Positions 21,214 to 36,468 of a stretch of DNA of 64,000 bases are shown in pieces; position 1 is the first letter of the stretch, and each line of letters starts with the position of its first letter. The stretch spans positions 2,046,001 to 2,110,000 of the forward strand of contig NZ_AP022600.1 in NCBI RefSeq assembly GCF_010725885.1, read 5' to 3'. The translations under genes were made by a program, and so were the position numbers. Source of the stretch: Mycolicibacterium tokaiense. GTDB lineage: Bacteria; Actinomycetota; Actinomycetes; Mycobacteriales; Mycobacteriaceae. The notes below the pieces were generated by a model. It was not told the DNA's origin. It did not search any database and worked only from the letters and a program-made list of their open reading frames with translations.

Positions 21214-21455
21214 CGGTCCTGACCCGGGTAGGGCAGCAGCGCCATCTCGCGGGCGTTTTTGATGGCCGTGGCCACGTGGCGCTGCTGCTGCACCGTGAGA
21301 CCGGTGACGTTGCGCGAGCGGATCTTTCCCTTGTCCGAGATGAACACCCGCAGCGCGTTGGTGTCCTTGTAGTCTACGGTCTCCAGGCCCATGCTCTTGA
21401 GCAGATTCTTCTTGGGCCGCTTGGCATCTGGAGCGGGACGGGGACGGCGCGCCAT
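21210..21455 (-). CDS. rpsR2: 30S ribosomal protein S18, zinc-independent paralogue
   Basis: An 81-residue S18 ([17 protein letters not shown] start; [18 protein letters not shown] core; [18 protein letters not shown] end). It has no cysteine, so it is the C- form that replaces the zinc-binding S18 during zinc shortage. ATG 21455 shares its A with the rpsN stop (TGATG); a GTG one codon earlier is possible. It is the last gene of the four-gene C- operon rpmB-rpmG-rpsN-rpsR. Confidence 0.92.
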
Positions 21456-21760
21456 CACCAGCTCGACTTCCGGACGCCGGGCAGCTCGCCGCGGTGCGCC
21501 ATCTCGCGAACGCGAACCCGGGACAACCCGAACTTACGCAGATGTCCGCGCGGGCGGCCGTCGGCCGCATCCCGATTGCGGACCCGCACCGCGCTGGCAT
21601 CGCGAGGTTGACGCGCCAACTCGGCCTGAGCGGCGATCCGCTGCTCGACAGAACTGCTCGGAGACTTGATGATCCGCTTCAGCTCTGCACGCCGGTCGGC
21701 ATAGCGTGCGACGATTTCCCGGCGCAAGTCGTTCTTGACGATCTTCGATCGCTTGGCCAT
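21455..21760 (-). CDS. rpsN2: 30S ribosomal protein S14, zinc-independent paralogue
   Basis: A 101-residue S14 of the long type without the CxxC...CxxC zinc finger: [17 protein letters not shown] at the start, [20 protein letters not shown] at the end, and no cysteine at all. It is the C- paralogue that takes the place of the short zinc-binding S14 in 30S subunits when zinc is scarce. It starts one base after the rpmG stop in the same operon. Confidence 0.93.
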
Positions 21761-21761
21761 C

Positions 21762-21932
21762 TCAGCGTTCCTCGCGGAAGTCGACGTGCTTGCGTACCAA
21801 GGGGTCGTACTTGCGCAGTACGAGCCGGTCCGGGTCGTTGCGGCGGTTCTTGCGGGTGACGTACGTGAAGCCCGTCCCTGCTGTTGACTTCAATTTGACG
21901 ATGGGCCGGATGTCGGTGCTCTTGGATGCCAT
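21762..21932 (-). CDS. rpmG1: 50S ribosomal protein L33, zinc-independent paralogue
   Basis: A 56-residue L33 starting [20 protein letters not shown] and continuing [16 protein letters not shown]. The cysteine pairs of zinc-binding L33 are absent. The ATG shares one base with the rpmB TGA (TGATG), so the four ribosomal genes are tightly coupled. Numbering of the symbol follows M. tuberculosis usage and is approximate. Confidence 0.92.
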
Positions 21933-22168
21933 CAGATCTTCTGTCCTTCCTTGCGGAGTCGGGCGACCACGGCTTCGATGCCGTCGCGGTCGATGGTCTT
22001 CATGCCCTTGACGCTGACCCGCAGTCGTACATTTCGGCCTTCAGACGGCAGATAGTAGGTCTTCATCTGGATATTCGGTGACCAGCGCCGCTTTGTCCGC
22101 CGGTTCGAGTGCGAGACGTTGTTACCGAACCCCGGCGAGCGTCCGGTGACCTGACAGATCGCAGACAT
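21932..22168 (-). CDS. rpmB2: 50S ribosomal protein L28, zinc-independent paralogue
   Basis: A 78-residue L28 starting [20 protein letters not shown], then [19 protein letters not shown] and a C-terminal helix. Only one cysteine remains, so it lacks the CxxC zinc site. ATG 22168 has AGGAGGG 6 bases upstream; the open frame extends further but without a ribosome site and across a Zur-like box. First gene of the C- operon; divergent from the Mrf gene with two Zur-like boxes in between. Confidence 0.92.
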
Positions 22169-22182
22169 CAACACCCTCCTGA

Positions 22183-22197
22183 TGAAAATCGTTTTCG
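22183..22197. promoter_or_regulatory. Zur-like box 1
   Basis: TGAAAATCGTTTTCG contains perfect arms GAAAA and TTTTC about a 3-base centre, matching the mycobacterial Zur operator form TGAAAAT(N)ATTTTCA. It lies 15 bases before the rpmB ATG, downstream of a TACAGT-like -10 on the minus strand, so a bound repressor would block that operon. Confidence 0.7.
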
Positions 22198-22237
22198 ACA
22201 AGTGCCGTGACGCACTGTAGCGTGAACATCGGCTAGA

Positions 22238-22252
22238 TGAAAATGATTCCCG
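22238..22252. promoter_or_regulatory. Zur-like box 2
   Basis: TGAAAATGATTCCCG has a perfect left half (GAAAATGATT) and a degraded right arm. It lies 15 bases before the Mrf ATG, mirroring the position of box 1, so each divergent transcript may have its own operator. Confidence 0.55.
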
Positions 22253-22266
22253 ATAGTGGAGGTGCG

Positions 22267-23448
22267 ATGCGTACGCCGGTAGTGCTGGTCGCGGGCCTGG
22301 GGGACACCGATGCGACCTCGGAAGTGCTGGCCCATCAGCCGGGAACGCTGCTGATCCGGCATCGCTTCGACGGCCATGTGGTCCGTCGCAGCCTGACGAC
22401 CTCTCAGCACCTCACTGCTGAGGTGGCTTTGGAGCTGGCGCACGGGTGCGTCGCCTGCACCATCCGTAACGATCTGCTGATCCTGCTGCGCCGTGTGCAC
22501 CGCCGAGACGACGTGACCCGCATCGTGGTGGCGCTGCCGTCGGAGATGGAGCCCGAACCGGTGTGCTTCGCGATCAACCGGGTCCCGGTGCGCGTCGGCC
22601 CGGGTTACATCGACGGACCCGCCGCCCGCGATGTCCGGATCCACGCGGTGGTGGTGTGCGTCGACGCCGACAGTTGGCTGGCCACGGCGCTGGGTGACGA
22701 GGAACTGCCCGACGGGCGCACCGCAGCACAAGTGGCGGTGTGCCAGGCCGAGTTCGCCGACGTGCTGGTGGTACCGCGGCCGCAGCCGGTGGAACTCGCG
22801 GTGCTGCGCCGCCTGGCCCCGCGGGCACGGATCACCGCCGATGCTGACCGGGTGGAGATGGCTTTGGCGAACCTGGAGCCCGACGCCCGGCGCGGACGCA
22901 GCGACCACCCGCACGGACCGTTGCTGGCCGGGCAGCCTCCGCTGGCTGCAGACGGCCCGGTGAAGCTGGTGGAGTTCAGTGCCCGGCGTCCGTTCCACCC
23001 TGCCCGGTTGCACGAGGCACTGGACCGGCTGCTCGACGGCGTCGTTCGGGCCCGCGGGCGGTTGTGGCTGGCGAGTCGGTCCGAGCACGCCATGTATCTC
23101 GAGTCCGCCGGTGGGGGACTGCGGGTGAGCAATGCCGGGAAGTGGCTGGCCGCAATGACATCGGGGGAGATGGCCTACGTGGATCCGGAGCGACGGGCGC
23201 TGGCGGATCTGATGTGGGAGCACCGCTTCGGTGACCGCCACACCTCGATGGCGGTACTGGTGTGCGGCGCCGACCCCGCCGAGATCTCGGCCGCCCTGCA
23301 CCATGCCCTTCTCACCGACGACGAGATGAACCGGCCCAATGGCTGGGCCGAGTATCCCGATCCGTTCGGCGACTGGCACACCGAACCCTGCACGGCCGCA
23401 GACGATCTCGCCACCGAAAGCACCCACTCAGTCGAAGGAGACCGATGA
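22267..23448 (+). CDS. mrf: CobW/G3E-like protein, ribosome-hibernation recruitment factor Mrf-like
   Basis: About 393 residues from ATG 22267, which has GGAGG 5 bases upstream. The N-terminus [18 protein letters not shown] replaces the normal G3E P-loop (GxxGxGKT), so GTP binding is doubtful. CobW-like [12 protein letters not shown] keeps a CxxC in place of the GCxCC metal motif. The C-terminal part (from about 240) is the CobW C-terminal domain. The gene position next to C- ribosomal genes is that of M. smegmatis Mrf and M. tuberculosis Rv0106, which in zinc starvation recruits hibernation factor Mpy to C- ribosomes. Zur control is likely. Confidence 0.82.
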
Positions 23449-23711
23449 AACCCGACATCCACCCCGACTACCACCCGGTGGTGTTCCAGGACGCCACCAC
23501 CGGCAAGACCTTCCTGACCCGCTCCACGATCACCAGTGACCGGACCATCGACTGGGAGGGCCAGACCTACCCCCTAGTGATGGTCGACGTCACCGCCGAC
23601 TCACACCCCTTCTGGACGGGTGGCAACCGGATCCTCGACAAGGCGGGTCAGGTGGAGAAGTTCCGTAAGCGGTACGGCGACGGTGGGCGTCAGTACACGT
23701 CGCGCACGTAA
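23445..23711 (+). CDS. rpmE2: 50S ribosomal protein L31 type B, zinc-independent
   Basis: An 88-residue L31 starting [20 protein letters not shown], with the type-B motif [21 protein letters not shown]. The zinc cysteines of L31 type A are absent. GAAGGAG precedes the ATG, which overlaps the Mrf TGA as ATGA, so L31 rises together with Mrf. Its last 22 bases overlap the 3' end of the convergent diflavin reductase gene, out of frame. Confidence 0.93.
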
Positions 23712-25429
23712 CGCTTCTCGCGTTTGAGGTCGTTGACGTACTCGGTGGTCTGTTCGGTGCCCATCGCCCCGTGCTCGGCCACGATGTCGTGCAGGGCCTT
23801 GTCCACGTCCTTGGCCATCCGGGTTGCGTCACCGCAGACGTAGAAATGCCCGCCGTTCTGCAACCAGGCGAACAGGTCCGCGCCGTGCTCGTGCATGCGG
23901 TGCTGGACGTAGACCTTGCGGGCCTGATCCCGGGAGAAGGCCAGATCCAGGCGATCGAGCAGCCCCGAGGAGTGCCAACTCGCCAGCTCGTCGGCATAGA
24001 TGTAGTCGTGCTCGCGGTGCTGGTCGCCGAAGAACAGCCAGTTGTCACCACCGGCCCCGCGTCGCTCGCGCTCCTGCAGGAACGCGCGGAACGGGGCGAT
24101 GCCGGTGCCGGGGCCCACCATGATCATCGGGGTGTTGTCATCGGCCGGCACCCGGAACGACTTGTTGGGCTGCAGGAAGATCTTCGCGGTGGCGCCCCGG
24201 TCGGCCAGGAAGGTCGAACACACCCCGCCGCGTGAGCGACCCGCGCTCTGGTAGCGCACCGCCGCGACGGTCAGATGGATGCTGTCGGGGTGGGCCAGCG
24301 AGCTCGACGAGATCGAATAGGCCCGATGCTGGAGGGGTTTGAGCAACCCGATGAACTCCTCGATGCTCAGCTGGTCGCCGCCGATACGCAGGATGTCGAG
24401 GATGTCCTTGCCCCACAGCCAGCGATCCAGCGTCTCCTTCACGCCGCCGCGCAGTACATAGGAGAATTCCTCGTTCTCGGCGCGGCTCTCCACCTCACCG
24501 AGGAGATCCTTCGACGGCGCGCTGATCTCATATCGATGCCCGAGAAGTTCGCCGAGAGGCTCGCCGTCCACCAGGGTGTCGACGGACACCCGGAAGTGAT
24601 CGGCGATGGCCTCCACCAGAGCGGGGTCGTTCTCGGGGATAACGGCCAGCGCATCGCCGGCCTCGTAGGTGATGCCGCTGTCGGCCAAGGCGAACTCGAA
24701 GTGCCGGATCTCCTTGTCCGACTGGGCACCCGAGAGCAGCCGGTTGACCGCCACCTCGGCGGGGAAGGGATGCTTGCGCGTCCAGCCGGAGCGGGCGGCG
24801 ATGCTGGGCGGCGGTGTCGCGGGCGTACCGCTGGCGCCGGTGAGGCTCACCAGGCTGCCCACTGCCGACTGCACCCATTCGGCGGCCGGCGCCTCGTAGT
24901 CGATGTCGCAGTCGACGCGGCCCACCAGCCGATTCGCGCCGAGCTGCTCGAGCCGGGTGTCGAACAGCTTGCCGGCCTGGCAGAACCCGTCATAGCTGGT
25001 GTCGCCGAGAGCGAGCACGCTGTAGGAGACCCCCTCCAGCCGCGGCGCCGTGCTGGCAGACAGTGCCTCCCAGAACAATTCGGCGTTGTCGGGCATCTCG
25101 CCCTCACCGTAGGTGGACGTGACGATCAGCACGTGGTTGAGCCCGGCGAACTCGTCGAGTTCGATCTCGTCGAGCCCGCTGACCGTGACGTCGAAACCCT
25201 GCAGCCGGGCGGCAGCCGCGGCGTCGTTGGCCACTCCTTCGGCGTTGCCGGTCTGCGTGCCGTAGAGGATGCGCAGCGGCGGCCGCGGCGCGTCGGAGTC
25301 CGCGGCGACCGGGGGCGGCGCCGTCATGTTCATGGCGACCCGGGAGTGCAGGCCGGCCAGGAACCCCGAGATCCAGGCGCGCTGGTCCTCGTTGAACGGC
25401 GCGTCTTCGGGGATGTAGGCGATTTTCAT
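23690..25429 (-). CDS. CysJ-like NADPH diflavin reductase
   Basis: A 579-residue diflavin reductase. Residues 1-35 form a helical lead ([17 protein letters not shown], as in CysJ); 50-200 is a flavodoxin domain with [16 protein letters not shown] for FMN phosphate and [12 protein letters not shown]; 225-430 is the FAD/linker domain ([13 protein letters not shown]); 440-579 is the NADPH domain ([27 protein letters not shown], aromatic end RDVY). Family members pass electrons from NADPH to sulfite reductase haemoprotein, P450 or similar. No cysI or nitrite reductase gene is present; instead it is translationally coupled (ATGA) to the GltB-like gene upstream, where no GltD is found. It may be the electron donor to that protein (inference). 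Confidence 0.85.
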
Positions 25430-28400
25430 GGGACTTTCACCGGGGTCTGCGCCGACGTCTCGGGAGTCAGACCCGCGGCGACGGTCGGAATCGTCTTGCA
25501 CGCGAACAGTTCTTCGAACGACGGCAGCCGGCCGATCCTGTCGACGTTCTTGGCGCTCTGGTGCAGGATCCAGCCGTAAGTGCCGGGGCTGTCCATCGAC
25601 AGGACGTTGCGCTGCGCCAGTGCCTCTTTGTAGTCGGTGATGCGTTTGTTGGCGATCAGCACCGCGAGATCCTCGTCGGGGAAGATCTCGATGGCTTCCC
25701 GCGCGTACCGCTGCAACTTGTTCACCAGGAAGAAATCCTCGGTGAGCACCAGGTTGCGCACCGCCTTGCCGATGCGTGGATCGGTGACGTCCGTGACTCC
25801 GGGGGTGCGCGTCAGCGCGAGCTGCTGGGCCATGTTCAGCACTGTGTAGGTGTTCAGCAGCGCGAACATCTCCTCGGTGTCGGTGTCCCCGTAACCGGGC
25901 ACCGACCCGCCGTGCACCAGCGTCTGATCCCGGTAGGAGCGCTTGAACTTGTGCACCTGGTAGCCCGCCAACGCGGTGGCCAACTCGTCGAGCAGTTCCT
26001 TGCGGGTCTTGGCCGCCAGGATGGCGTCGGCGTCCTGGTACTGCAGCAGCGCCCGTGGCATCACGAACACGACGTGCTGACGGGTGGTGGACCAGCCCTG
26101 CAACAGTGCCCGCGCCTTCTCCGATCCGGTGGCCTCGGCGTGCCACTCCAACAGTGTGCGCGCGGCGACCTCGTGGAACGCTGCGTCGCTGATCGGAGCC
26201 AGCACCACCGAATCGGCGCTGACCTTGCTCGCCAGTTCACCGGCTGGGTCGTACTGGTACAGGAAGCCGCCGCTCATGCCGTTGGCGACACCCTTGCCGA
26301 ACCCGCCGATGTTGAACACCGCACCGTTGGTCATGTACTCGCAGAGGAACTCGCCCACGCCCTCGACCACCGCCGTCGCGCCGGAGTTGCGGACAGCGAA
26401 GCGGTCGCCGGCCTCACCCTCGACGAACAACCTGCCGCCGGAAGCTCCGAAAAGTGCGAAGTTGCCCACCAGGACGTTGCCGCCCGGCGTCTGCGCTCCG
26501 CCGCCGGGAGAGCGCACCGTGATGGTGCCGCCGCTGGCACTTTTGCCCACCCCGTCGTTGCAGGTTCCGGTGTGCGTCATGGCCATTCCGTCGTTGCAGA
26601 ATGCGCCGTAGCTCTGTCCCGCCGATCCGGTGGTGGTGATGACCACGCTCTCCGGGGCCAGGTAACGCCGGCCGCGTTCATCGGTGCATACCGACGACCC
26701 CTGTGCTCCCTCGTGATTGAGCATTCGCTCGATGTCGATGGCCAGCTGCCCGCCCACACTCTTGTCGCCGTTGGTCAGCGCTATCGCGGGGTACTGCACC
26801 CCGTCGAGCGAGAGTCCGTGCAACAGCTCGTCGTCGACCCGGTAGTCCTTCTCCATGTAGATGGGGTTCTCGACGACGAACTCGTCGACCACCGCCAACA
26901 TCGCCCGCAGGTCCAGACGTCCGATGCTGGAGGGGTGTTCGAGCAGGTGCAGCAGGTCGCTGCGACCGCGGGCGGCGCGCAGCGACGGCAGTCCGAGGGT
27001 GGCCAGGATCTCGCGCACCTCGTGGGAGATGTTGAGCAGGTACTGCGCCAGCGCCCGCGGATCACCTTCGAACACCTCGGCGTTGGTGGTGAGGCCGGCG
27101 GGGCACTTGATGTTGCAGTTCTTGGCCATGACGCACTTGAGCATCATCAGCGCGGTGGTGCCGAATTCGTAGCTGTCGGCGCCCAGCAGGGCGGATTTGA
27201 CGACGTCGCCGGCGGTCTGGTGCGCGCCCGAGCAGCGCAGCACGACCTTTTGCCGGATTCCGTTGGCGCACAGAGCCTGGTGCACCTCGGCGACGCCGAT
27301 CTCGGCCGAACGTCCGGCGTACTTGAGGCTGGTGACCGCCGCGGCTCCGGTGCCGCCGGTGTTCCCGGCGACGTTGATGACGTCGGCGCCGGCCTTGGCG
27401 ACGCCGACGGCGATGGTGCCGATGCCCTCCGAGGACACCAGCTTCACGATGACCCGCACCCGGGCGGCCTTGCAGTCGTGGATCAGCTGGGCCAGGTCCT
27501 CGATGGAGTACGTGTCGTGGTGCGGCGGCGGCGAGACCAGCTCGACACCGGGGGTGCCGCCGCGGGCAGCGGCGATCTGCACGGTCACCTTGGGCGCCGG
27601 AAGCTGGCCTCCCTCACCGGGTTTGGCGCCCTGGCCGATCTTGATCTCGAGTTCCTGCAGCATGGGGTCGGCCAGGTAACCCGCCCACACCCCGAAGCGG
27701 CCTGAGGCGAACTGCTTGATCCGGGAGCCGCGGATGGTGCCGTAGCGGGTGATGTGCTCACCGCCTTCACCGCAGTTCGACAGTCCGCCCACCATGTTGG
27801 TGCCGTGTGCCACCGCCTCGTGGGCCGGCGCCACCAGCGCACCGTGGCTCATGGCCCCCGATGCCAGAGTGGCCGCGATCTCGTTGGCCGGCTGGATATC
27901 CGAGAGCGGAATGGAGTCCGGCGCGGTGCGCAGGCGGCGCAGATAGGCCGCAGCCGACCCGGTGGCGCGGATCCGCAGGCTGTCGCCGATCACGGCACTG
28001 TCGGCGATGTCGTCGGCGAAACGGTCTGCCAGGGACTGGGCCAGCGCCTCGAGTCGCTGGGGGCCGTGGCTCAACCGCAGGGTGAACTCGTCGCCGTCGG
28101 CGTCGCACGTCAGCCCGCGCACCAGGAAGCTGTTGTTGCCGAACCGGGCGAACTGCCCCATCTCCGAGGTGAACTCGTCGGCGGTGTGCAGGAAGTTCAC
28201 ATCGGCGGGCAGCGCCAGCACATCGCGCAGCGCGGCCGGGCGCCGCGTGCGTTCGGCGTTCATCGCGAAGACGAAGGCGCGGTAACCGGGGGTGATGTCG
28301 AAGCTGTTGATGGCCCGGGGGGTCAGCTCGGAGAAGCTGTTGTTGCGGTAGGCCTGGTCATCGAGTCCGAAGGCGCCTTCGAGTTGGTGCAGCGGCAGAC

Positions 28401-30957
28401 CGCGCAGAAATGCGGGGTCGGCCATGTCCGGATTGTCGGGCCGGGCCTCGTCGTCGAAACTGATGGACTCTTCGGTCATGTCGACGAAGCCGCGCACCGC
28501 GGTGGTGCCGTACGAGTGGCCGGCCCCCTCGGCACGCTCCTTGAACAGACCCAGCAGCGGCACATCCTTCTCGTCGTGCACGGCCAGCGCACGGGTGTGC
28601 CATTCGGCCACCGTCTCGGCCAGGGTGGTGAATCCGACGCCGGCGACCGCGGAGACGACGTTGGGGAAATAGCGCCTGAGCACCGGGTCACCGGTGTCGA
28701 GATAGTTGGGCTCGAAGAACTCGCCGCCGATGTAGCTCTCGACGGTGCACAGACCCACCCGGCCCATGGTCTTCATCAGCGATTTCTCGGCGGCCTTGGC
28801 GAACTGCTTGAAAGCCTTGCGGACGTTGTCCTCATCGGGCCCGAACTTCTCCTCCGCACGCATCTGCACCGCCAGCGGATACACCGCGGACGCGCCGAAG
28901 CCCAGTGCCGTGGCCACGTGGTGCGACGAACATATCTGACCGCTCTCGGCGATCACCGACACCCGCAGTCGCAGGCCCTCTTCGATGAGGCGCTGGTTGA
29001 TCGCCGACATCACGATGGTCAAGGGCATTGCCGCACGGGCACTCTCGACATGACGGTCGGAGATCACGGCAATGCCGCCGGTCTCCCGGGCGAAGGCCTC
29101 CACCTCGTCGCAGAGCGCGTCGATGGCACGCACCAGCGAGTCGGCATTGGCCTGCGGATCGGTGAGGTCGATCCGGTAGCGCATCCCGAACCGGCGCACC
29201 GGCGTCTGCTTCTGGTCCCGGATCTTGAGCATGTCCAGGTGCGTGAGAATCGGTGAGGGGACCACGATCTGGGGCGCGGGGACGGCTCCACTGTTGGGTT
29301 TGGCGCCCAGGGCGACCCGCAGGGTCATACCGTCGGCCTCGCGGATGCTGTCCAGCGGTGGGTTGGTCACCTGCGCGAACTTCTGCGAGAAGTACCGGGC
29401 GATGCCGCCCTCGTGGTTGGACAGGGCGTTGATGGCTGCCCCGTAGCCCATCGCGGAGATCTTCTCCTGGCCGGTGGCCAGCATCGGATCCATCAGGAAC
29501 TTGAAGCTCTCCTGGTTCAGCGAGTAGGCGACGTAGCGCTGGTGCCGGTTGAGGTCGCCGTTGTAGCGCGCGGGGGACAGCTGCCCTTCCGGGGGTACCG
29601 GGGGGAGGTCGGCCAGGTCCACCCGGGCCTCGGCCAGCAAGGCGGGGTAATCATGGCGCGCGGCAAGCATTTCCAGCGCTTCGGTGGTGGTGTACGAGCG
29701 GGCGGCGCTGTGGTCGTAGTACAGCATGCCGCCGGCCTCGATACGGCCCCGGGTGAGCACTTCTTCGGGAGGGAAGTACACCTGGCCGGCCTCGGACATC
29801 ACGCCCAGGTACTCGGCGGTCTCGACGGTGCGCAGCGGCCGCAGGCCGAGGCGGTCCAGACGCGCGCCGATGATGGTGCCGTTGCCGAAGATCAGCGCGG
29901 CGGGTCCGTCGTTCTTCTCCTCGTAGAGGCTGAAGAACTCCAGCATGGCCCGCACCTGCGGCGAGAGCGTGGTGTCGTTCTCCCAGGCCGGCGGCATCAT
30001 GGCCACGACGGCGGACACCACGTCCAGTTCGTCCTCGTAGACCCGGTTCTGCAGGGTCTGGTCCAGCCGGCAGCTGTCGGACTGGCCCAGCGGCCGCACG
30101 ATCGACCGGTTGCGGGCACGGGCGATGGCGTTGTCGGAGAGCCGGTTCTTCTTGTCGGTATTCAGCTCGCCGTTGTGGGCCATCAGCCGGAACGGTTGCG
30201 CCATCATGGCGTTGGGCACGGTGTTGGTGGAGAACCGGGTGTGGAAGAACATCGAGTGCACTTCCATCCGGGGATCGGACAGGTCGGTGAAGTAGGGCAC
30301 CACCTCGCCCGAGTTCAGCCGGCCCTTGAGCACCTGGGTACGTGCCGACAGGGAAAGCGGGTACAGACCCAGCAGCTCCGGTCGGGTGTAGGCGATGGCC
30401 TCGATCGCCATCAGCGCGTCGTGGATGGCACGGTCGGAGGCCGTGGAGAAAATCCACTGCCGGATGGGCAGCTGGTACTTCACGGCCGCGGGACGGATGG
30501 CCGAGTTGTCCACCGGCACATCACGTTTGAGTAGGATCTCCAGGCCGTGGGCGGCCAGCGCCGCCTCGATCACCGCTTCGGCCTCGCCGTGGAACGCGGG
30601 ATCGGTGGGCAGGAAGAAGTTGCCCACGCCGAACTCGCCGAGGCGCAGGTCGGGGCGGCCGGTCAGCTCGGAGAAGAAGCGCAGCGACAGATCCAGGTTC
30701 ACCCCCGCTCCGTCGCCCACACCCTCTGAGGACATGCCGCCGCGGTGCGGCACCGCGCACAGGGCTTCGTGCAGCTTGCGGACCACGTCATGGGTCTGCA
30801 CGCCGTCCTTGCGGGTGAGGAAGCCGACACCGCAGCTGCTGTGTTCGATGTCGGGGTTGTACAAACCGCTCAAGCGAGGTTCTCCTGCCAAATCCAGCGC
30901 AGACGGCGCAGCCGTCGAGGTGGTGCGCGCCGTTGCGCCGCCCATCGGAGGCAGCAC
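25426..30957 (-). CDS. Oversized GltB-like glutamate synthase large subunit
   Basis: Up to 1843 residues, about 300 more than ordinary GltB. Order: Ntn glutaminase domain with the nucleophile in EHSSCGVGF (Cys42) and its HNGELN motif; central domain about 490-800; a longer-than-usual linker (about 830-1010); FMN synthase domain with QGAKPGEGGQLP and the 3Fe-4S cysteines CVMAKNCNIKCP (C-x5-C-x3-C, one residue shorter than the usual C-x5-C-x4-C); GXGXG helix about 1350-1590; and a 200-residue extension unique to this subgroup. It should make glutamate from glutamine and 2-oxoglutarate. Starts GTG 30957 or ATG 30945. The usual gltD is missing; a diflavin reductase follows. An iron-box-like site lies before it. 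Confidence 0.85.
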   Translation of the reverse strand: MLPPMGGATARTTSTAAPSALDLAGEPRLSGLYNPDIEHSSCGVGFLTRKDGVQTHDVVRKLHEALCAVPHRGGMSSEGVGDGAGVNLDLSLRFFSELTGRPDLRLGEFGVGNFFLPTDPAFHGEAEAVIEAALAAHGLEILLKRDVPVDNSAIRPAAVKYQLPIRQWIFSTASDRAIHDALMAIEAIAYTRPELLGLYPLSLSARTQVLKGRLNSGEVVPYFTDLSDPRMEVHSMFFHTRFSTNTVPNAMMAQPFRLMAHNGELNTDKKNRLSDNAIARARNRSIVRPLGQSDSCRLDQTLQNRVYEDELDVVSAVVAMMPPAWENDTTLSPQVRAMLEFFSLYEEKNDGPAALIFGNGTIIGARLDRLGLRPLRTVETAEYLGVMSEAGQVYFPPEEVLTRGRIEAGGMLYYDHSAARSYTTTEALEMLAARHDYPALLAEARVDLADLPPVPPEGQLSPARYNGDLNRHQRYVAYSLNQESFKFLMDPMLATGQEKISAMGYGAAINALSNHEGGIARYFSQKFAQVTNPPLDSIREADGMTLRVALGAKPNSGAVPAPQIVVPSPILTHLDMLKIRDQKQTPVRRFGMRYRIDLTDPQANADSLVRAIDALCDEVEAFARETGGIAVISDRHVESARAAMPLTIVMSAINQRLIEEGLRLRVSVIAESGQICSSHHVATALGFGASAVYPLAVQMRAEEKFGPDEDNVRKAFKQFAKAAEKSLMKTMGRVGLCTVESYIGGEFFEPNYLDTGDPVLRRYFPNVVSAVAGVGFTTLAETVAEWHTRALAVHDEKDVPLLGLFKERAEGAGHSYGTTAVRGFVDMTEESISFDDEARPDNPDMADPAFLRGLPLHQLEGAFGLDDQAYRNNSFSELTPRAINSFDITPGYRAFVFAMNAERTRRPAALRDVLALPADVNFLHTADEFTSEMGQFARFGNNSFLVRGLTCDADGDEFTLRLSHGPQRLEALAQSLADRFADDIADSAVIGDSLRIRATGSAAAYLRRLRTAPDSIPLSDIQPANEIAATLASGAMSHGALVAPAHEAVAHGTNMVGGLSNCGEGGEHITRYGTIRGSRIKQFASGRFGVWAGYLADPMLQELEIKIGQGAKPGEGGQLPAPKVTVQIAAARGGTPGVELVSPPPHHDTYSIEDLAQLIHDCKAARVRVIVKLVSSEGIGTIAVGVAKAGADVINVAGNTGGTGAAAVTSLKYAGRSAEIGVAEVHQALCANGIRQKVVLRCSGAHQTAGDVVKSALLGADSYEFGTTALMMLKCVMAKNCNIKCPAGLTTNAEVFEGDPRALAQYLLNISHEVREILATLGLPSLRAARGRSDLLHLLEHPSSIGRLDLRAMLAVVDEFVVENPIYMEKDYRVDDELLHGLSLDGVQYPAIALTNGDKSVGGQLAIDIERMLNHEGAQGSSVCTDERGRRYLAPESVVITTTGSAGQSYGAFCNDGMAMTHTGTCNDGVGKSASGGTITVRSPGGGAQTPGGNVLVGNFALFGASGGRLFVEGEAGDRFAVRNSGATAVVEGVGEFLCEYMTNGAVFNIGGFGKGVANGMSGGFLYQYDPAGELASKVSADSVVLAPISDAAFHEVAARTLLEWHAEATGSEKARALLQGWSTTRQHVVFVMPRALLQYQDADAILAAKTRKELLDELATALAGYQVHKFKRSYRDQTLVHGGSVPGYGDTDTEEMFALLNTYTVLNMAQQLALTRTPGVTDVTDPRIGKAVRNLVLTEDFFLVNKLQRYAREAIEIFPDEDLAVLIANKRITDYKEALAQRNVLSMDSPGTYGWILHQSAKNVDRIGRLPSFEELFACKTIPTVAAGLTPETSAQTPVKVP

Positions 30958-30974: not shown

Positions 30975-30993
30975 CCAGGCAAGCCTAGCCTAA
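30975..30993 (-). promoter_or_regulatory. IdeR/DtxR-like iron box
   Basis: On the minus strand TTAGGCTAGGCTTGCCTGG matches the 19-bp IdeR consensus TTAGGTTAGGCTAACCTAA at 14 positions, including both halves AGG and CCT. It lies 18 bases before the GTG of the GltB-like gene, where a -10 box (TAGGCT) could overlap it, the usual position for iron-dependent repression. Confidence 0.55.
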
Positions 30994-31071: not shown

Positions 31072-31512
31072 ATGATCGAAAACATGAGCATCGAAGTGGT
31101 GTACACCGCAGAGTCCACAGCCTCCGGCGGCGGCCGGGACGGTCATGTGAAGTCCACGGACGGCAAGATCGATCTCGACACCCGGCCCCCCAAGGAGATG
31201 GGCGGCAGCGGCGAGGGCGTCAACCCCGAGCTGCTGTTCTCGGCCGGTTACTCCGCGTGCTTCCTGGGCGCGCTGCGACTGGTCGCCAAGAACGAGAAGA
31301 TCAGCATCGACGACGCCAGCGGCATCACCGCCCAGATCGGCCTCGGCAAGAATTCCGAGGGCGGCTTCGGCCTCACCGCCCACCTGGTGGGTTACCTGCC
31401 AGGACTCGAGCAGGACGTCGCCGATGACCTGATGGAGAAGGCACACGAGGTCTGCCCGTACTCCAGGGCCACCCGCGGCAACATCGACGTGACCCTCACC
31501 GCGAAGGTCTGA
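31072..31512 (+). CDS. Organic hydroperoxide resistance protein, Ohr/OsmC family
   Basis: A 146-residue Ohr-type thiol peroxidase reducing organic hydroperoxides. The two redox cysteines are in GYSACFLGALRL and EVCPYSRATRGN, the latter being the Ohr signature; Arg/Glu partners occur in the N-terminal half (Arg20 region). The start could be ATG 31072 or ATG 31084; MSIEVVYTAEST from 31084 is the more usual family start. It lies between the GltB-like gene (divergent) and the Rv3705c-like gene, 1 base apart from the latter. Confidence 0.88.
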   Translation: MIENMSIEVVYTAESTASGGGRDGHVKSTDGKIDLDTRPPKEMGGSGEGVNPELLFSAGYSACFLGALRLVAKNEKISIDDASGITAQIGLGKNSEGGFGLTAHLVGYLPGLEQDVADDLMEKAHEVCPYSRATRGNIDVTLTAKV

Positions 31513-32152: not shown

Positions 32153-32248
32153 TTCCGGGGTTGGCCGTCGGCCGCCCGGGTAACTGTCACCACAATGTCA
32201 GCCGATGAACCCGCGAACTTTGTCGGTGACCTCACCCAAGATGGTCAC

Positions 32249-33526
32249 ATGACGTTTGTCGTCGCACCGCCCGCCACGGCAGGCGAAACACAGGCGCGTG
32301 CGTTGGTGAATTCCGCCGACGCCGCGCAGCACATCGCCGAGGGCAGCCTCACCGACGCCCCGCTGGGCCGGGTGGGCCTGGAGATCGAGGCCCATTGTTT
32401 CGACCGGGCCGACCTGCAGCGCCGGCCCGGCTGGCAGCAGATCACCGATGTCATCGCCGGGTTGCCGACCCTGCCGGGCGGCAGTGCTGTCACCGTCGAA
32501 CCCGGCGGGGCCGTGGAACTGTCCGGCCCGCCGTTCGAGGGAGCACCGGCGGCCATCGCCGCCATGGCCGCTGACCGGGCCGTCCTCGACGTGGCGTTCG
32601 ACGCTGCCGGGCTGGGGCTGGCTCTGCTCGGGGCGGACCCGTTGCGGCGGCCGCAACGCGTCAACCCCGGCCCTCGCTACCAGGCCATGGAGCAGTTCTT
32701 CGCTGCCAGCGGCACCGGTGAGGCCGGCGCGGCCATGATGACCTCAACGGCCTCCATCCAGGTCAATCTGGATGCCGGCCCCCGGGCCGGCTGGGGTGCG
32801 CGCGTCCGCCTGGCGCACGCGCTGGGCCCCACCATGATCGCGATCAGCGCCAACTCGCCGCTGCGCGGCGGCCAGTTCACCGGCTGGGCATCCTCGCGCC
32901 AACAGGTCTGGGGACAACTCGACTCGGCACGCTGCGGCCCGATTCTGGGCCACAGCACCGACGACCCCGCCGCCGAGTGGGCGCGCTATGCACTGAAAGC
33001 GCCGGTGATGCTGGTGCGCGACGGTGCCGAGGCGACGCCCGTCCTGGACTGGGTGCCCTTCGCCGAATGGGCCGACGGCAGCATCCCGCTCGGCGGCCGC
33101 CGCCCCACCACAGCCGACCTCGACTACCACCTGACCACCTTGTTCCCCCCGGTGCGTCCGCGCCGCTGGCTGGAGATCCGCTATCTCGACAGCCTTCCGG
33201 ACACGCTGTGGCCCGCGGTCGCCCACACCATGACCACCCTGCTCGACGACCCGGTGGCCGCTGACCTGGCGGCCGAGGCGGTCGAGCCCGTGGCCACCGC
33301 CTGGGACACCGCGGCGCGGGCGGGGCTGGCCGACCGGCATCTGCGGGAGTCCGCAGTGCGGTGCCTGGAGATCGCGGCCGAGCGCGCGCCCGGGGAATTG
33401 ATCGGGTCGATGCAGCTGTTGGTCGATCTGGTGGCCCAGGCCCGCAGTCCCGGGGACCAGTTTTCCGACACCGCGGTGCGCCTGGGAATCGACGCCGCCA
33501 TCGCCGACCTGTGGCAGGAGCGCTGA
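32249..33526 (+). CDS. egtA: Glutamate-cysteine ligase EgtA
   Basis: About 425 residues, ATP-dependent gamma-glutamylcysteine synthase of the GCS2/EgtA type supplying the sulfur donor for ergothioneine in mycobacteria. Motifs: GRVGLEIEAHCFD near the start (metal/glutamate binding Glu-x-Glu), SVTVEPGGAVELSGPP-like core, MTSTASIQVNLD, SANSPLRGGQFTGW and WLEIRYLDSLP. ATG 32249 gives a length matching M. tuberculosis EgtA (Rv3704c); ATG 32195 in frame is the alternative. First gene of egtABCDE. Confidence 0.92.
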   Translation: MTFVVAPPATAGETQARALVNSADAAQHIAEGSLTDAPLGRVGLEIEAHCFDRADLQRRPGWQQITDVIAGLPTLPGGSAVTVEPGGAVELSGPPFEGAPAAIAAMAADRAVLDVAFDAAGLGLALLGADPLRRPQRVNPGPRYQAMEQFFAASGTGEAGAAMMTSTASIQVNLDAGPRAGWGARVRLAHALGPTMIAISANSPLRGGQFTGWASSRQQVWGQLDSARCGPILGHSTDDPAAEWARYALKAPVMLVRDGAEATPVLDWVPFAEWADGSIPLGGRRPTTADLDYHLTTLFPPVRPRRWLEIRYLDSLPDTLWPAVAHTMTTLLDDPVAADLAAEAVEPVATAWDTAARAGLADRHLRESAVRCLEIAAERAPGELIGSMQLLVDLVAQARSPGDQFSDTAVRLGIDAAIADLWQER

Positions 33527-34798
33527 GTGAGTACCCGAGAGTTGTTGGCCGACGGTTTGTCCCGCGCCCGTGAGCGCACCCGCGCGCTGGTGGCGTTCGA
33601 GGACGACGAGCTGCGCCGGCAGTACCACCCGCTGATGAGCCCACTGGTGTGGGATCTAGCGCACATCGGGCAGCAGGAGGAGCTGTGGCTGCTGCGCGAC
33701 GGCAACCTCGAGGTGCCCGGCCTGCTGCCCCGCAACATCGAGGGGCTCTACGACGCCTTTGTGCATTCCCGCGCCAGCCGGGTGGATCTGCCGCTGCTCT
33801 CCCCGGCGGAGGCACACCGGTATCTGGAGACCGTGCGGCGCAAGGCCCTCGATGTCCTCGACGCCGCGGACGAGGACCACGAGTTCCGCTTTGCGCTGGT
33901 GATCAGCCACGAGAACCAGCACAACGAGACCATGCTGCAGGCACTGGCCATGCGCACCGGGGCGCCGCTGCTGAGCGCCGGAACAGCGCTGCCGGGCGGC
34001 AGACCCGGCGTCGCCGGAACGTCGGTCGAGGTGCCCGCCGGTGACTTCGTCCTCGGCGTCGATCCCGCCGACGAGCCGTTCTCCCTGGACAACGAGCGGC
34101 CCGCGCACACCGTGTTCGTCCCGGGTTTCCGCATCGGCCGGGTGCCCGTCACCAACCGCGAATGGCGGGCATTCCTCGACGACGGTGGCTACCGGCGGCC
34201 CGAGCTGTGGTCCACCCGGGGCTGGGACCACCGCACGAAAGCCGGCCTCGATGCGCCGATGTACTGGAACACCGACGGCACCCGCACCCGGTTCGGGCAT
34301 CTCGAGACCATCCCGGACGACGAGCCCGTGCAGCACGTCACGTATTTCGAAGCGCAGGCCTACGCCCGGTGGGCGGGCGCGCGGCTGCCCACCGAGATCG
34401 AATGGGAGAAGGCCGCCGCCTGGGATCCGGCCGCCGGTCGTCGCCGCCGGTTCCCCTGGGGTGCCGCGACGCCCACCGCCGCCGTGGCCAACCTCACCGG
34501 CGAGGCGCTGCGCCCCGCCCCCGTGGGTGCCTACCCGGCCGGCGCGTCGGCCTACGGCGCCGAGCAGATGCTGGGCGATGTGTGGGAATGGACCAGCTCC
34601 CCGCTGCGGCCGTGGCCGGGGTTCACGCCGATGATCTACGACCGCTATACCGAGCCCTTCTTCGAGGGGGATTACCGCGTACTGCGCGGCGGATCGTGGG
34701 CGGTGGCCGCGGACATCCTGCGCCCCAGCTTCCGCAACTGGGACCACCCGATCCGGCGGCAGATCTTCTCCGGTGTGCGATTGGCCTGGGATCTGTAG
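33527..34798 (+). CDS. egtB: Hercynylcysteine sulfoxide synthase EgtB
   Basis: A 423-residue non-haem iron sulfoxide synthase joining hercynine, oxygen and gamma-glutamylcysteine. N-terminal DinB-like domain supplies the three histidine iron site ([13 protein letters not shown] and [11 protein letters not shown]); the C-terminal FGE-sulfatase-type domain has [23 protein letters not shown] and [11 protein letters not shown] start directly follows the egtA TGA with no gap. It uses gamma-Glu-Cys as in mycobacteria, hence EgtA and EgtC in the operon. Confidence 0.94.
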
Positions 34799-35479
34799 AT
34801 GTGCCGCCACCTCGGCTGGCTGGGTGAGGCCGTGTCCGTGTCCAGCCTGGTGCTCGAACCGCCCAACGGATTGCTGGTGCAGTCCTACGCCCCGCGCCGG
34901 CAGAAACACGGGACCATGAACGCCGACGGCTGGGGTGTCGGCTTCTTCGACGGCGACACCCCGCGCCGGTGGCGGGGCGCCGCGCCGCTCTGGGGAGACA
35001 GCTCGTTTGCCTCGGTGGCACCCGCGCTGGCCAGCACGTGTGTGGTGGCGGCGGTGCGCTCGGCCACTGTGGGCATGCCCATCGATGTCAGCGCGGCTGC
35101 GCCCTTCACCGACGGACGCTGGCTGCTGTCCCACAACGGTGTGGTGGACCGGTCGGTGCTGCCCGCGGACTCGGGTGCCGAGTCGGTGGTGGACAGCGCG
35201 CTGCTGGCCGCGCTGATCTTCCGGCGCGGGCTGGATCAACTGGGCCCGACCATCGCCGAAGTGGGTGCCGCCGACCCCCTGGCGCGTTTGAACATTCTGG
35301 CCGGCAACGGGTGTCGTCTCCTGGCCACCACCTGGGGTGACACCCTGTCGATGTTGCGCAGGCCCGATGGGGTGGTGGTGGCCAGTGAGCCCTACGACGA
35401 TCACCCGGATTGGGAGGACATCCCCGACCACCACCTCGTCGACGTCCACGACGGCACCGTGACCGTCACCGCCCTGTAG
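34799..35479 (+). CDS. egtC: Gamma-glutamyl hercynylcysteine sulfoxide hydrolase EgtC
   Basis: A 226-residue class II (Ntn) glutamine amidotransferase-fold hydrolase. Cys2 in MCRHLGWLG becomes the N-terminal nucleophile after Met removal; [10 protein letters not shown] and SHNGVVD are the usual substrate-site motifs. It removes the glutamyl group from the EgtB product. ATG 34799 directly follows the egtB TAG. Confidence 0.93.
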
Positions 35480-35490
35480 GAAGGTCCACG

Positions 35491-36468
35491 ATGACCAGTC
35501 ACACCTCCATCACCGTCGCCAACCATCTGGCCGCCGACCACGCCGCCCGTGCTCTGCGTGAAGATGTCCGCACCGGGTTGACTGCCAGCCCGAAGTCGTT
35601 GCCGCCCAAGTGGTTCTACGACGCCGTGGGCAGCGACCTGTTCGACCGGATCACCCGGCTGCCGGAGTACTACCCCACCCGGGCCGAGGCGTCCATCCTG
35701 GCGCAGCGCGCCGCCGAGATCGCCGTCGCCAGTGGCGCCGACACCCTGGTCGAACTCGGCAGCGGCACCTCCGAGAAGACCCGCAGGCTGCTCGATGCTC
35801 TTCGTGAGCACGGCACGCTGACCCGCTTCATCCCGTTTGATGTCGACTCGTCGGTGCTGGTGGCCGCAGGTGCCGCGCTGACCGCGGAGTATCCCGGCCT
35901 GGACATCGACCCCGTGTGCGGGGACTTCGAAGAGCACCTGGGCGAGATTCCCCGCGGTGGCAGTAGGCTTTTCGCGTTTCTGGGCTCCACCATCGGCAAC
36001 CTCACCCCCGGACCGCGCGCACAGTTCCTGGCATCACTGGCGGCGGTGATGAACCCCGGCGATTCCCTGCTGCTGGGCACCGACCTGGTGAAGGACACCG
36101 AGCGTCTGGTGCGCGCCTATGACGACAGCGCGGGAGTCACCGCCGCGTTCAACCGCAATGTGCTGTCGGTGGTGAACCGGGAGCTGCACGCCGACTTCGA
36201 CCTGGACGCGTTCGCCCACGTGGCCAAGTGGAATGCCGGCGAGGAACGCATCGAGATGTGGCTGCGGGCCGCCACCGCCCAGCAGGTGCACATCGGCGAG
36301 CTGGACCTGCGCGTCGACTTCGCCGCGGGTGAAGAGATGTTGACCGAGGTGTCGTGCAAGTTCCGCTCCGAGGGCGTGGCCCGCGAACTTGCCGCCGCCG
36401 GGCTTACCCGCACCCACTGGTGGACCGACGCCCCCGGTGATTTCGGTCTGTCGCTGGCCGTGCGGTGA
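35491..36468 (+). CDS. egtD: Histidine N-alpha-methyltransferase EgtD
   Basis: A 325-residue SAM-dependent enzyme making hercynine (trimethylhistidine), the committed step. Features: [27 protein letters not shown] start split over residues 40-66, SAM motif [27 protein letters not shown], and [20 protein letters not shown] at the end. AGGAAGG lies 6 bases before the ATG; its TGA overlaps the egtE GTG. Confidence 0.95.

Follow-up and report, generated by a model that had tools for sequence, protein, structure and literature searches.

Introduction

When ammonium is scarce, ammonia enters metabolism mainly through glutamate synthase (GOGAT). In the canonical enzyme the FAD, two [4Fe-4S] clusters, the [3Fe-4S] cluster and FMN are arranged in line, and the potential of the [3Fe-4S] cluster is given as near -280 mV, or -190 mV in the presence of 2-oxoglutarate (PMC8097209, in the part of the text available). 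The NADPH-dependent form, GltBD (EC 1.4.1.13), is known from Azospirillum brasilense and E. coli, and a ferredoxin-dependent form (Fd-GOGAT) takes its electrons from an external carrier. Flavodoxin substitutes for ferredoxin, and in function a flavodoxin-like domain resembles a small electron carrier. Two further systems bear on the locus discussed here: CysJ, the diflavin reductase that is linked to the sulfite reductase haemoprotein CysI, and the diflavin-containing monomeric nitrate reductase, which suggests that a diflavin module can be the electron donor in nitrogen assimilation, and which is reportedly a single polypeptide whose catalytic part is unrelated.

The gene pair described here, a long GltB followed by a diflavin reductase, shares with GltBD the domain order, the catalytic Cys, the FMN-site motifs and the three cluster Cys of the large subunit, along with a two-gene operon and, presumably, NADPH as the electron source. 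It differs from GltBD in having a diflavin reductase where GltBD has GltD with its two [4Fe-4S] clusters, and its large subunit is about 300 residues longer and has a shortened cluster motif. An analogy with Fd-GOGAT may also be drawn, as an external one-electron carrier would feed the 3Fe-4S/FMN subunit, but the pair has a dedicated, co-encoded NADPH reductase, and the long GltB is a protein of 1843 aa whereas the solved Synechocystis enzyme has 1520. The reductase resembles CysJ in its FMN-FAD-NADPH domain set, yet its partner is a glutamate synthase.

The locus and its host genome

The window, by which we mean the whole 64-kb stretch of Mycolicibacterium tokaiense DNA that was analysed, covers 2.046-2.110 Mb of a single-contig genome of 6.33 Mb, and the pair lies at 2.07 Mb. 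The open reading frame list and domain searches define a long GltB-like glutamate synthase of 1843 aa, read from a GTG (25426..30957, minus strand), and a CysJ-like NADPH-FAD-FMN diflavin reductase of 579 aa (23690..25429, minus strand), with an ATGA overlap at their junction, just as the original prediction had described them. In the protein database the same large-subunit gene (P0001) begins 22 codons later and encodes 1821 aa, so the exact start varies between sources. Genes of this kind are currently annotated as a "glutamate synthase-related protein" and a sulfite reductase, and the closest relatives of this long GltB in a tree come from the Mycobacteriaceae and Nocardiaceae.

Two canonical GltB proteins, each followed by GltD, are encoded at 1.846 and 4.665 Mb of the same genome. 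Only two NIR_SIR matches were found in the genome, at 6.126 Mb in a frame of 577 aa and at 1.061 Mb in one of 848 aa, which from their lengths we judge to be of the NirA and NirB type; no CysI adjoins the pair, and the earlier statement that no sulfite or nitrite reductase haemoprotein lies nearby is borne out. With two canonical gltBD operons elsewhere and no local sulfite reductase, the pair therefore represents a third glutamate synthase.

Several neighbouring genes were recognised by eye from their translations. Beside the pair, at 21455-23711, are a bS14-like gene (21455-21760, minus strand), a CobW/GTPase-like gene (22237-23448, plus strand) and a bL31B-like gene (about 23448-23711, plus strand), a group that resembles the alternative ribosomal protein set of zinc limitation. 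An OsmC/Ohr-like gene (31072-31512) is divergent from long gltB and shares its upstream region, and genes like egtA-egtB-egtC-egtD of ergothioneine synthesis occupy 32195-36468.

Architecture of the long GltB

Domain searches recover the four GltB domains in GltB order, all on the minus strand: GATase_2, the glutamine amidotransferase domain (residues 42-437; 29647..30834), Glu_syn_central (residues 474-749; 28711..29538), Glu_synthase, the FMN/synthase domain (residues 1014-1322; 26992..27918), and GXGXG (residues 1420-1592; 26182..26700). The first residue of GATase_2 is the conserved nucleophile Cys42, which stands in a CGVG motif near the N-terminus of all 93 family members. When six family members were aligned with three canonical GltB proteins, motifs such as RFSTNT, HNGE, ASGRFG and QGAKPGEGGQLP, which we take to lie in the active sites, were found to be conserved, and the canonical DGGTGA was found to read TGGTGA in the long family (residues about 1199-1205). 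The score of the long GltB against the NCBIfam GltB equivalog, 1018.8 bits, falls below the cut-off of 1047.

The original prediction had characterised this protein as about 300 residues oversized, with an enlarged linker before the FMN domain, a C-terminal extension of about 200 residues and a 3Fe-4S motif one residue too short, and all four features withstood closer comparison. Its 1843 aa compare with 1539 and 1524 in the two canonical GltB proteins of the same genome and 1486 in E. coli GltB, an excess of about 300-360 residues. Against structure 7mfm, some 200 residues separate the two alignable halves instead of about 48 (about 150 extra), and 204 residues follow the last aligned position instead of 44 (about 160 extra); because of this surplus, both the linker (about residues 817-1006; 27940..28509, minus strand; placed by structure and family alignment) and the C-terminal extension (residues 1640-1843; 25429..26040, minus strand; placed by alignment and a predicted model) are regarded as real. 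Scanned alone, neither piece gave a Pfam match up to E = 10. Residues 1596-1843 are modelled as an all-helical bundle (mean pLDDT 87.6), for which Foldseek returned no fold match in the PDB at E <= 0.001, and a model of residues 745-1340 (mean pLDDT 64.5) has glutamate synthases as its best fold matches, a result that is uninformative for the linker.

The predicted 3Fe-4S ligands are Cys1275, Cys1281 and Cys1285 (27103..27135, minus strand). All three Cys are retained, but the spacing C-x5-C-x3-C differs from the C-x5-C-x4-C of the three canonical GltB proteins (the two of the same genome and that of E. coli). Since the short spacing is common to 93/93 family members, a sequencing slip is ruled out.

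Pairing across genomes

Eighty-five loci were picked by similarity: 80 from species genomes, these being the best 80 of at least 552 relatives, and five from plasmids of Shinella, Ketogulonicigenium, Tsukamurella, Neorhizobium and Sinorhizobium, these being five of nine plasmid records at 60-80% identity. In 85/85 the reductase gene follows immediately downstream, on the same strand, and a GltD or NirA-like gene (E <= 1e-10) was found in 0/85 within flanks of up to 8-10 kb. A neighbour-blind search, with the C-terminal extension alone as the query against evenly drawn genomes, found it in 2/296 Actinomycetota, 2/289 genomes of the class of an Agrobacterium and 4/369 of the class of Pantoea, counts that include the seed genome; a GltB scan of 119 genomes of Pantoea's order yielded two new long GltB proteins besides two already known. 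All seven newly drawn loci (about 50-64% identical) again have the reductase downstream, which brings the total to 92/92 and rules out chance adjacency of the two genes. In four annotated neighbourhoods that were inspected there is no other recurring partner gene.

Two checks had been proposed along with the original prediction, namely that long GltB should always occur with this reductase and never with a GltD of its own. The former holds in all 92 loci, 85 found by similarity and seven by the neighbour-blind route. The latter holds in the flanks of all 85, with the qualification that canonical genes may stand close by: locus L117 has the order yhcC-gltB-gltD-long gltB-reductase, with a complete canonical gltB-gltD just upstream, and in L118 a canonical gltB lies about 3 kb from the pair, so that the gltD of the one and the gltB of the other belong to canonical genes.

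The family extends over three phyla, with members in Actinomycetota, in Alpha-, Beta- and Gammaproteobacteria and in a single Verrucomicrobiales bin; among the genomes drawn, four from the genus to which the window belongs lack it. Few matches in even draws, spread over many lineages, mean that the family is rare but widespread. The trees of the two proteins, built from 92 pairs (L096 was excluded, its reductase being cut by a contig end), are congruent, with a correlation of distances of r = 0.934 that includes shared species history, uncorrected, against a maximum of 0.198 in 1000 permutations, and 61/89 splits are shared. The placement of SAR92 bacteria among Alphaproteobacteria fits transfer. 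As a separate observation, the tree places L071, whose record bears the name Enterobacter ludwigii, with Pantoea; the record is probably mislabelled.

The reductase

The partner protein has the domains Flavodoxin_1, FAD_binding_1 and NAD_binding_1, located by domain search as a flavodoxin-like FMN domain (residues 54-178; 24896..25270, minus strand) followed by FAD- and NADP-binding domains (residues 218-543; 23801..24778, minus strand). A C-terminal Tyr is present in all 92 partner reductases of more than 450 residues and an R-x-Y-S FAD motif in 93/93; both are presumably marks of a working reductase. Its best named family is CysJ (TIGR01931), at 612.8 bits against a cut-off of 668.15, and it scores 424.7 bits against a solved CysJ.

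GltB, GltD and CysI were sought in 50 of the 80 genomes, a set chosen to be diverse. CysI (E <= 1e-120) is missing from 39 of them, and in the other 11 it lies away from the pair with a CysJ-like protein of its own alongside. Ten of these CysI-linked proteins share 36-41% identity with the window's reductase, and one shares 49% over 235 residues. In a quick tree, which omits the 235-aa CysJ-like piece of L129 (hence ten of the 11) and a second diflavin piece of L119, the ten CysI-linked CysJ proteins are split from 38 GltB partners by a branch with an SH-aLRT of 94; L114, a 513-aa diflavin reductase encoded at 4.100 Mb of the window's own genome, branches off close to the base of the partner group, where its placement is unsure. 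On these data the diflavin reductase of the pair is not a CysJ.

Other diflavin sequences were seen in passing. Just past the partner reductase there is another diflavin-reductase-like stretch, with 42% identity, at L119:4235-5473, and at 5.608 Mb of the window's own genome (L113) a 1243-aa open reading frame has, by eye, a C-terminal diflavin part and is possibly like the diflavin nitrate reductase.

Genomes in which the pair seems to stand alone

In 13 of the 50 surveyed genomes the long protein is the only protein of the GltB type (PF04898). No GltD was found at E <= 1e-60 in 12 of these, comprising five isolates and seven metagenome bins that are possibly incomplete; the search scored up to 24 candidates per genome, with E. 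coli as the positive control. The 13th, an Erwinia, has a single GltD match, which lies in a frame of 651 aa and scores under the family cut-off, and over the whole survey 14/50 genomes have no GltD match at E <= 1e-60. The five isolates without canonical gltBD include one complete chromosome, that of Pantoea agglomerans. Since neither canonical GltB nor GltD was found in these 12 genomes (seven of them metagenome bins), a canonical gltD elsewhere in the genome, which had been named as an observation that would speak against the original prediction, seems not to be needed there. In the survey, each of the 16 actinobacterial genomes encodes canonical GltB and GltD besides the pair.

In all 18 Erwiniaceae loci (from Pantoea, Mixta, Erwinia and a record labelled Enterobacter ludwigii) rpoN-ptsN-rapZ-mtgA-arcB precedes the pair, and sspB-sspA-rpsI-rplM comes after it in 17 of the 18. 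The arcB-sspB interval is the site of gltBD in E. coli K-12, and gltBD therefore appears, from gene order, to have been displaced in situ by the pair. The pair seems to be the only GOGAT in Erwiniaceae, in some marine lineages and in some plant-associated bacteria.

A 2025 paper on the glutamate dehydrogenase of P. ananatis provides a link to physiology. In the portion of that paper available (PMC12364357), strain AJ13355 is stated to have no close homologue of E. coli GOGAT, its putative gltB is given as 64% identical to the large subunit of an Agrobacterium GOGAT, and a gltB knockout is stated, citing Hara et al. 2012, to cause Glu auxotrophy; gltD goes unmentioned in that portion. P. ananatis LMG 2665 has one GltB, which is of the long type and shares 68% identity with the long protein of Agrobacterium and 31-39% with the canonical one. 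The published 64% fits the long type and not the canonical one, and the gene that was knocked out is therefore very probably long gltB, as judged by comparison with LMG 2665.

A candidate iron box

The 114 bp between 30957 and 31072, shared by long gltB and the divergent OsmC-like gene, contain an IdeR/DtxR-type iron box, TTAGGCTAGGCTTGCCTGG (30975..30993, minus strand), which matches 14/19 of the published consensus and lies 17 bp before the GTG. The consensus is TTAGGTTAGSCTAACCTAA (PMC10317159, in the part available). Long gltB thus carries the 19-bp upstream box by which genes are assigned to the IdeR/DtxR regulon, and TTAGGCTAGGCTTGCCTGG is the sole site of at least 13/19 in the 64-kb window; upstream of the two canonical gltB genes of the same genome the best sites are only 12/19 and 10/19. 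Two proteins with an IdeR-type domain are encoded in the genome.

Scans of 360 bp upstream of the Cys codon in 30 actinobacterial loci, of which the window's is one, found a box of at least 13/19 in 24 of them, against 25/3000 dinucleotide shuffles, and one of at least 14/19 in 15/30 against 2/3000; the 30 loci are relatives and not independent. An earlier scan with a degenerate consensus had given at least 15/19 in 21/30, against 10/600 random stretches of the same loci. The genera with a box are Mycobacterium, Mycolicibacterium, Mycobacteroides, Nocardia, Tsukamurella, Rhodococcoides, Streptomyces, Pseudoclavibacter, Micropruina and Corynebacterium, and one of four Rhodococcus loci also has one; the six regions below 13/19 belong to three Rhodococcus, two Mycobacterium and one Mycolicibacterium.

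Fur-like sites were not enriched in the Gammaproteobacteria or Alphaproteobacteria groups, and iron control is therefore claimed for Actinomycetota only; a 14/19 Fur-like match occurs in three loci outside both groups (L020, L118 and L123). The RirA IRO box, TGA-N9-TCA according to the excerpts available of the literature, was found in 4/18 rhizobial-type upstream regions against 104/1800 shuffles, which is too weak for a claim. An exact GTCA-N7-TGAC palindrome, picked after inspection and differing from the RirA box, occurs in 8/18 of these regions (e.g. L016, L036 and L037) against 3/1800 shuffles.

In Caulobacter both canonical subunits are lowered under iron limitation (-2.30 and -2.51; PMC3751524, available portion), and gltB2 of S. 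aureus is described as a putative target of an iron-sparing sRNA, with support from probing and with mRNA stability unaffected (PMC9410917, likewise in part). In the available part of a paper on M. abscessus, no mention was found of an iron response of the pair. It seems likely, on the evidence of the upstream boxes, that in Actinomycetota the pair would be repressed by IdeR/DtxR at ample iron and induced on starvation, and there it is probably an iron-sparing isoenzyme, a role that fits the count, made from the clusters, of 3 Fe per protomer versus 11. The original prediction was thus sustained in its pairing and its interpretation but had missed the likely iron control.

Discussion

We consider it very likely that the long GltB and its reductase together form a glutamate synthase of a distinct class that would be fed by a diflavin reductase, which is also what the original prediction had proposed, and which the pairing and the genome survey support. 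The long GltB would be the catalytic subunit: glutamine would be hydrolysed at Cys42, ammonia would pass to the FMN site, and 2-iminoglutarate would be reduced there to glutamate. Electrons would run from NADPH through FAD and FMN of the reductase to the 3Fe-4S cluster and FMN of the long GltB, and from there to 2-iminoglutarate. By analogy, the FMN of a CysJ-type diflavin reductase should be able to reduce a 3Fe-4S cluster. For docking of the reductase, the linker and the C-terminal extension are the prime candidates.

Other explanations have to be weighed against this arrangement. The long GltB might be fed by ferredoxin or flavodoxin in the manner of Fd-GOGAT, with the reductase co-transcribed for the benefit of another acceptor. 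The modelled FMN region matches Synechocystis Fd-GOGAT (E 1.8e-18) about as closely as NADPH-GOGAT (E 1.8e-20 and 1.5e-17), in what is a low-confidence model; such a scheme nevertheless seems quite improbable, considering that the pairing extends to 92/92 loci in three phyla with congruent trees, and that the four annotated neighbourhoods offer no other recurring partner gene. The enzyme might instead be a glutamine-dependent reductive aminase, which the original prediction had mentioned beside glutamate synthase, and might take another 2-oxoacid than 2-oxoglutarate as its substrate. The score under the NCBIfam cut-off, the altered DGGTGA motif and cluster spacing, and the presence of two gltBD pairs in the window's genome would be in keeping with an aminase, but the long protein is the sole one of its type in 13/50 genomes, the Erwiniaceae pair sits at the gltBD locus, and the Glu auxotrophy reported for the P. 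ananatis knockout (in the portion of PMC12364357 available) favours glutamate synthase, all of which makes a different substrate likewise quite improbable. That the reductase is the CysJ of a sulfite reductase haemoprotein, its linkage to gltB being incidental, was another observation named beforehand as speaking against the prediction. Its best named family is indeed CysJ, but the score stays under the cut-off, no NIR_SIR domain is encoded nearby, 39/50 genomes have no CysI, the remaining 11 have another CysJ-like gene beside CysI, and in the quick tree a branch separates ten such proteins from the 38 partners; service to a sulfite reductase is thereby ruled out for practical purposes, and the possibility is close to negligible.

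A further doubt concerns the iron part only. The box could belong to the divergent OsmC-like gene or have arisen by chance, leaving the pair outside iron control: the intergenic region is short and shared, the window's box is a moderate match, and six of the 30 loci, among them three of the four Rhodococcus, have no box of 13/19. Boxes recur, however, upstream of long gltB across nine or more actinobacterial genera, and in the window the single site of at least 13/19 in 64 kb falls here, in a genome with two IdeR-type domain proteins; we regard this explanation as rather unlikely, though a more serious contender than the alternatives above. Taken as a whole, the account we lean towards is that of an NADPH-diflavin-GOGAT in which flavins would take the place of the eight Fe of GltD, a mobile cassette that would act as an iron-starvation isoenzyme under IdeR/DtxR in Actinomycetota and would have displaced gltBD in Erwiniaceae.

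The original prediction was aware of no described enzyme of this kind, and likewise, among the matches listed in the literature searched, outside which lie many subscription papers and bioRxiv preprints, no paper was found that describes a glutamate synthase-diflavin reductase pair. As far as found, both the donor and the class have gone unrecognised, although one probable member already has published physiological support. A further class, defined by a different electron donor, would alter the annotation of GOGAT genes: in genomes like those of Pantoea one half of the enzyme seems to be absent. From the phenotype published for Pantoea it would seem that a species employed in glutamate production already runs on the pair, and, if the proposed iron control is true, glutamate synthesis would continue in iron-starved cells as the Fe-S-rich GltBD is lowered.
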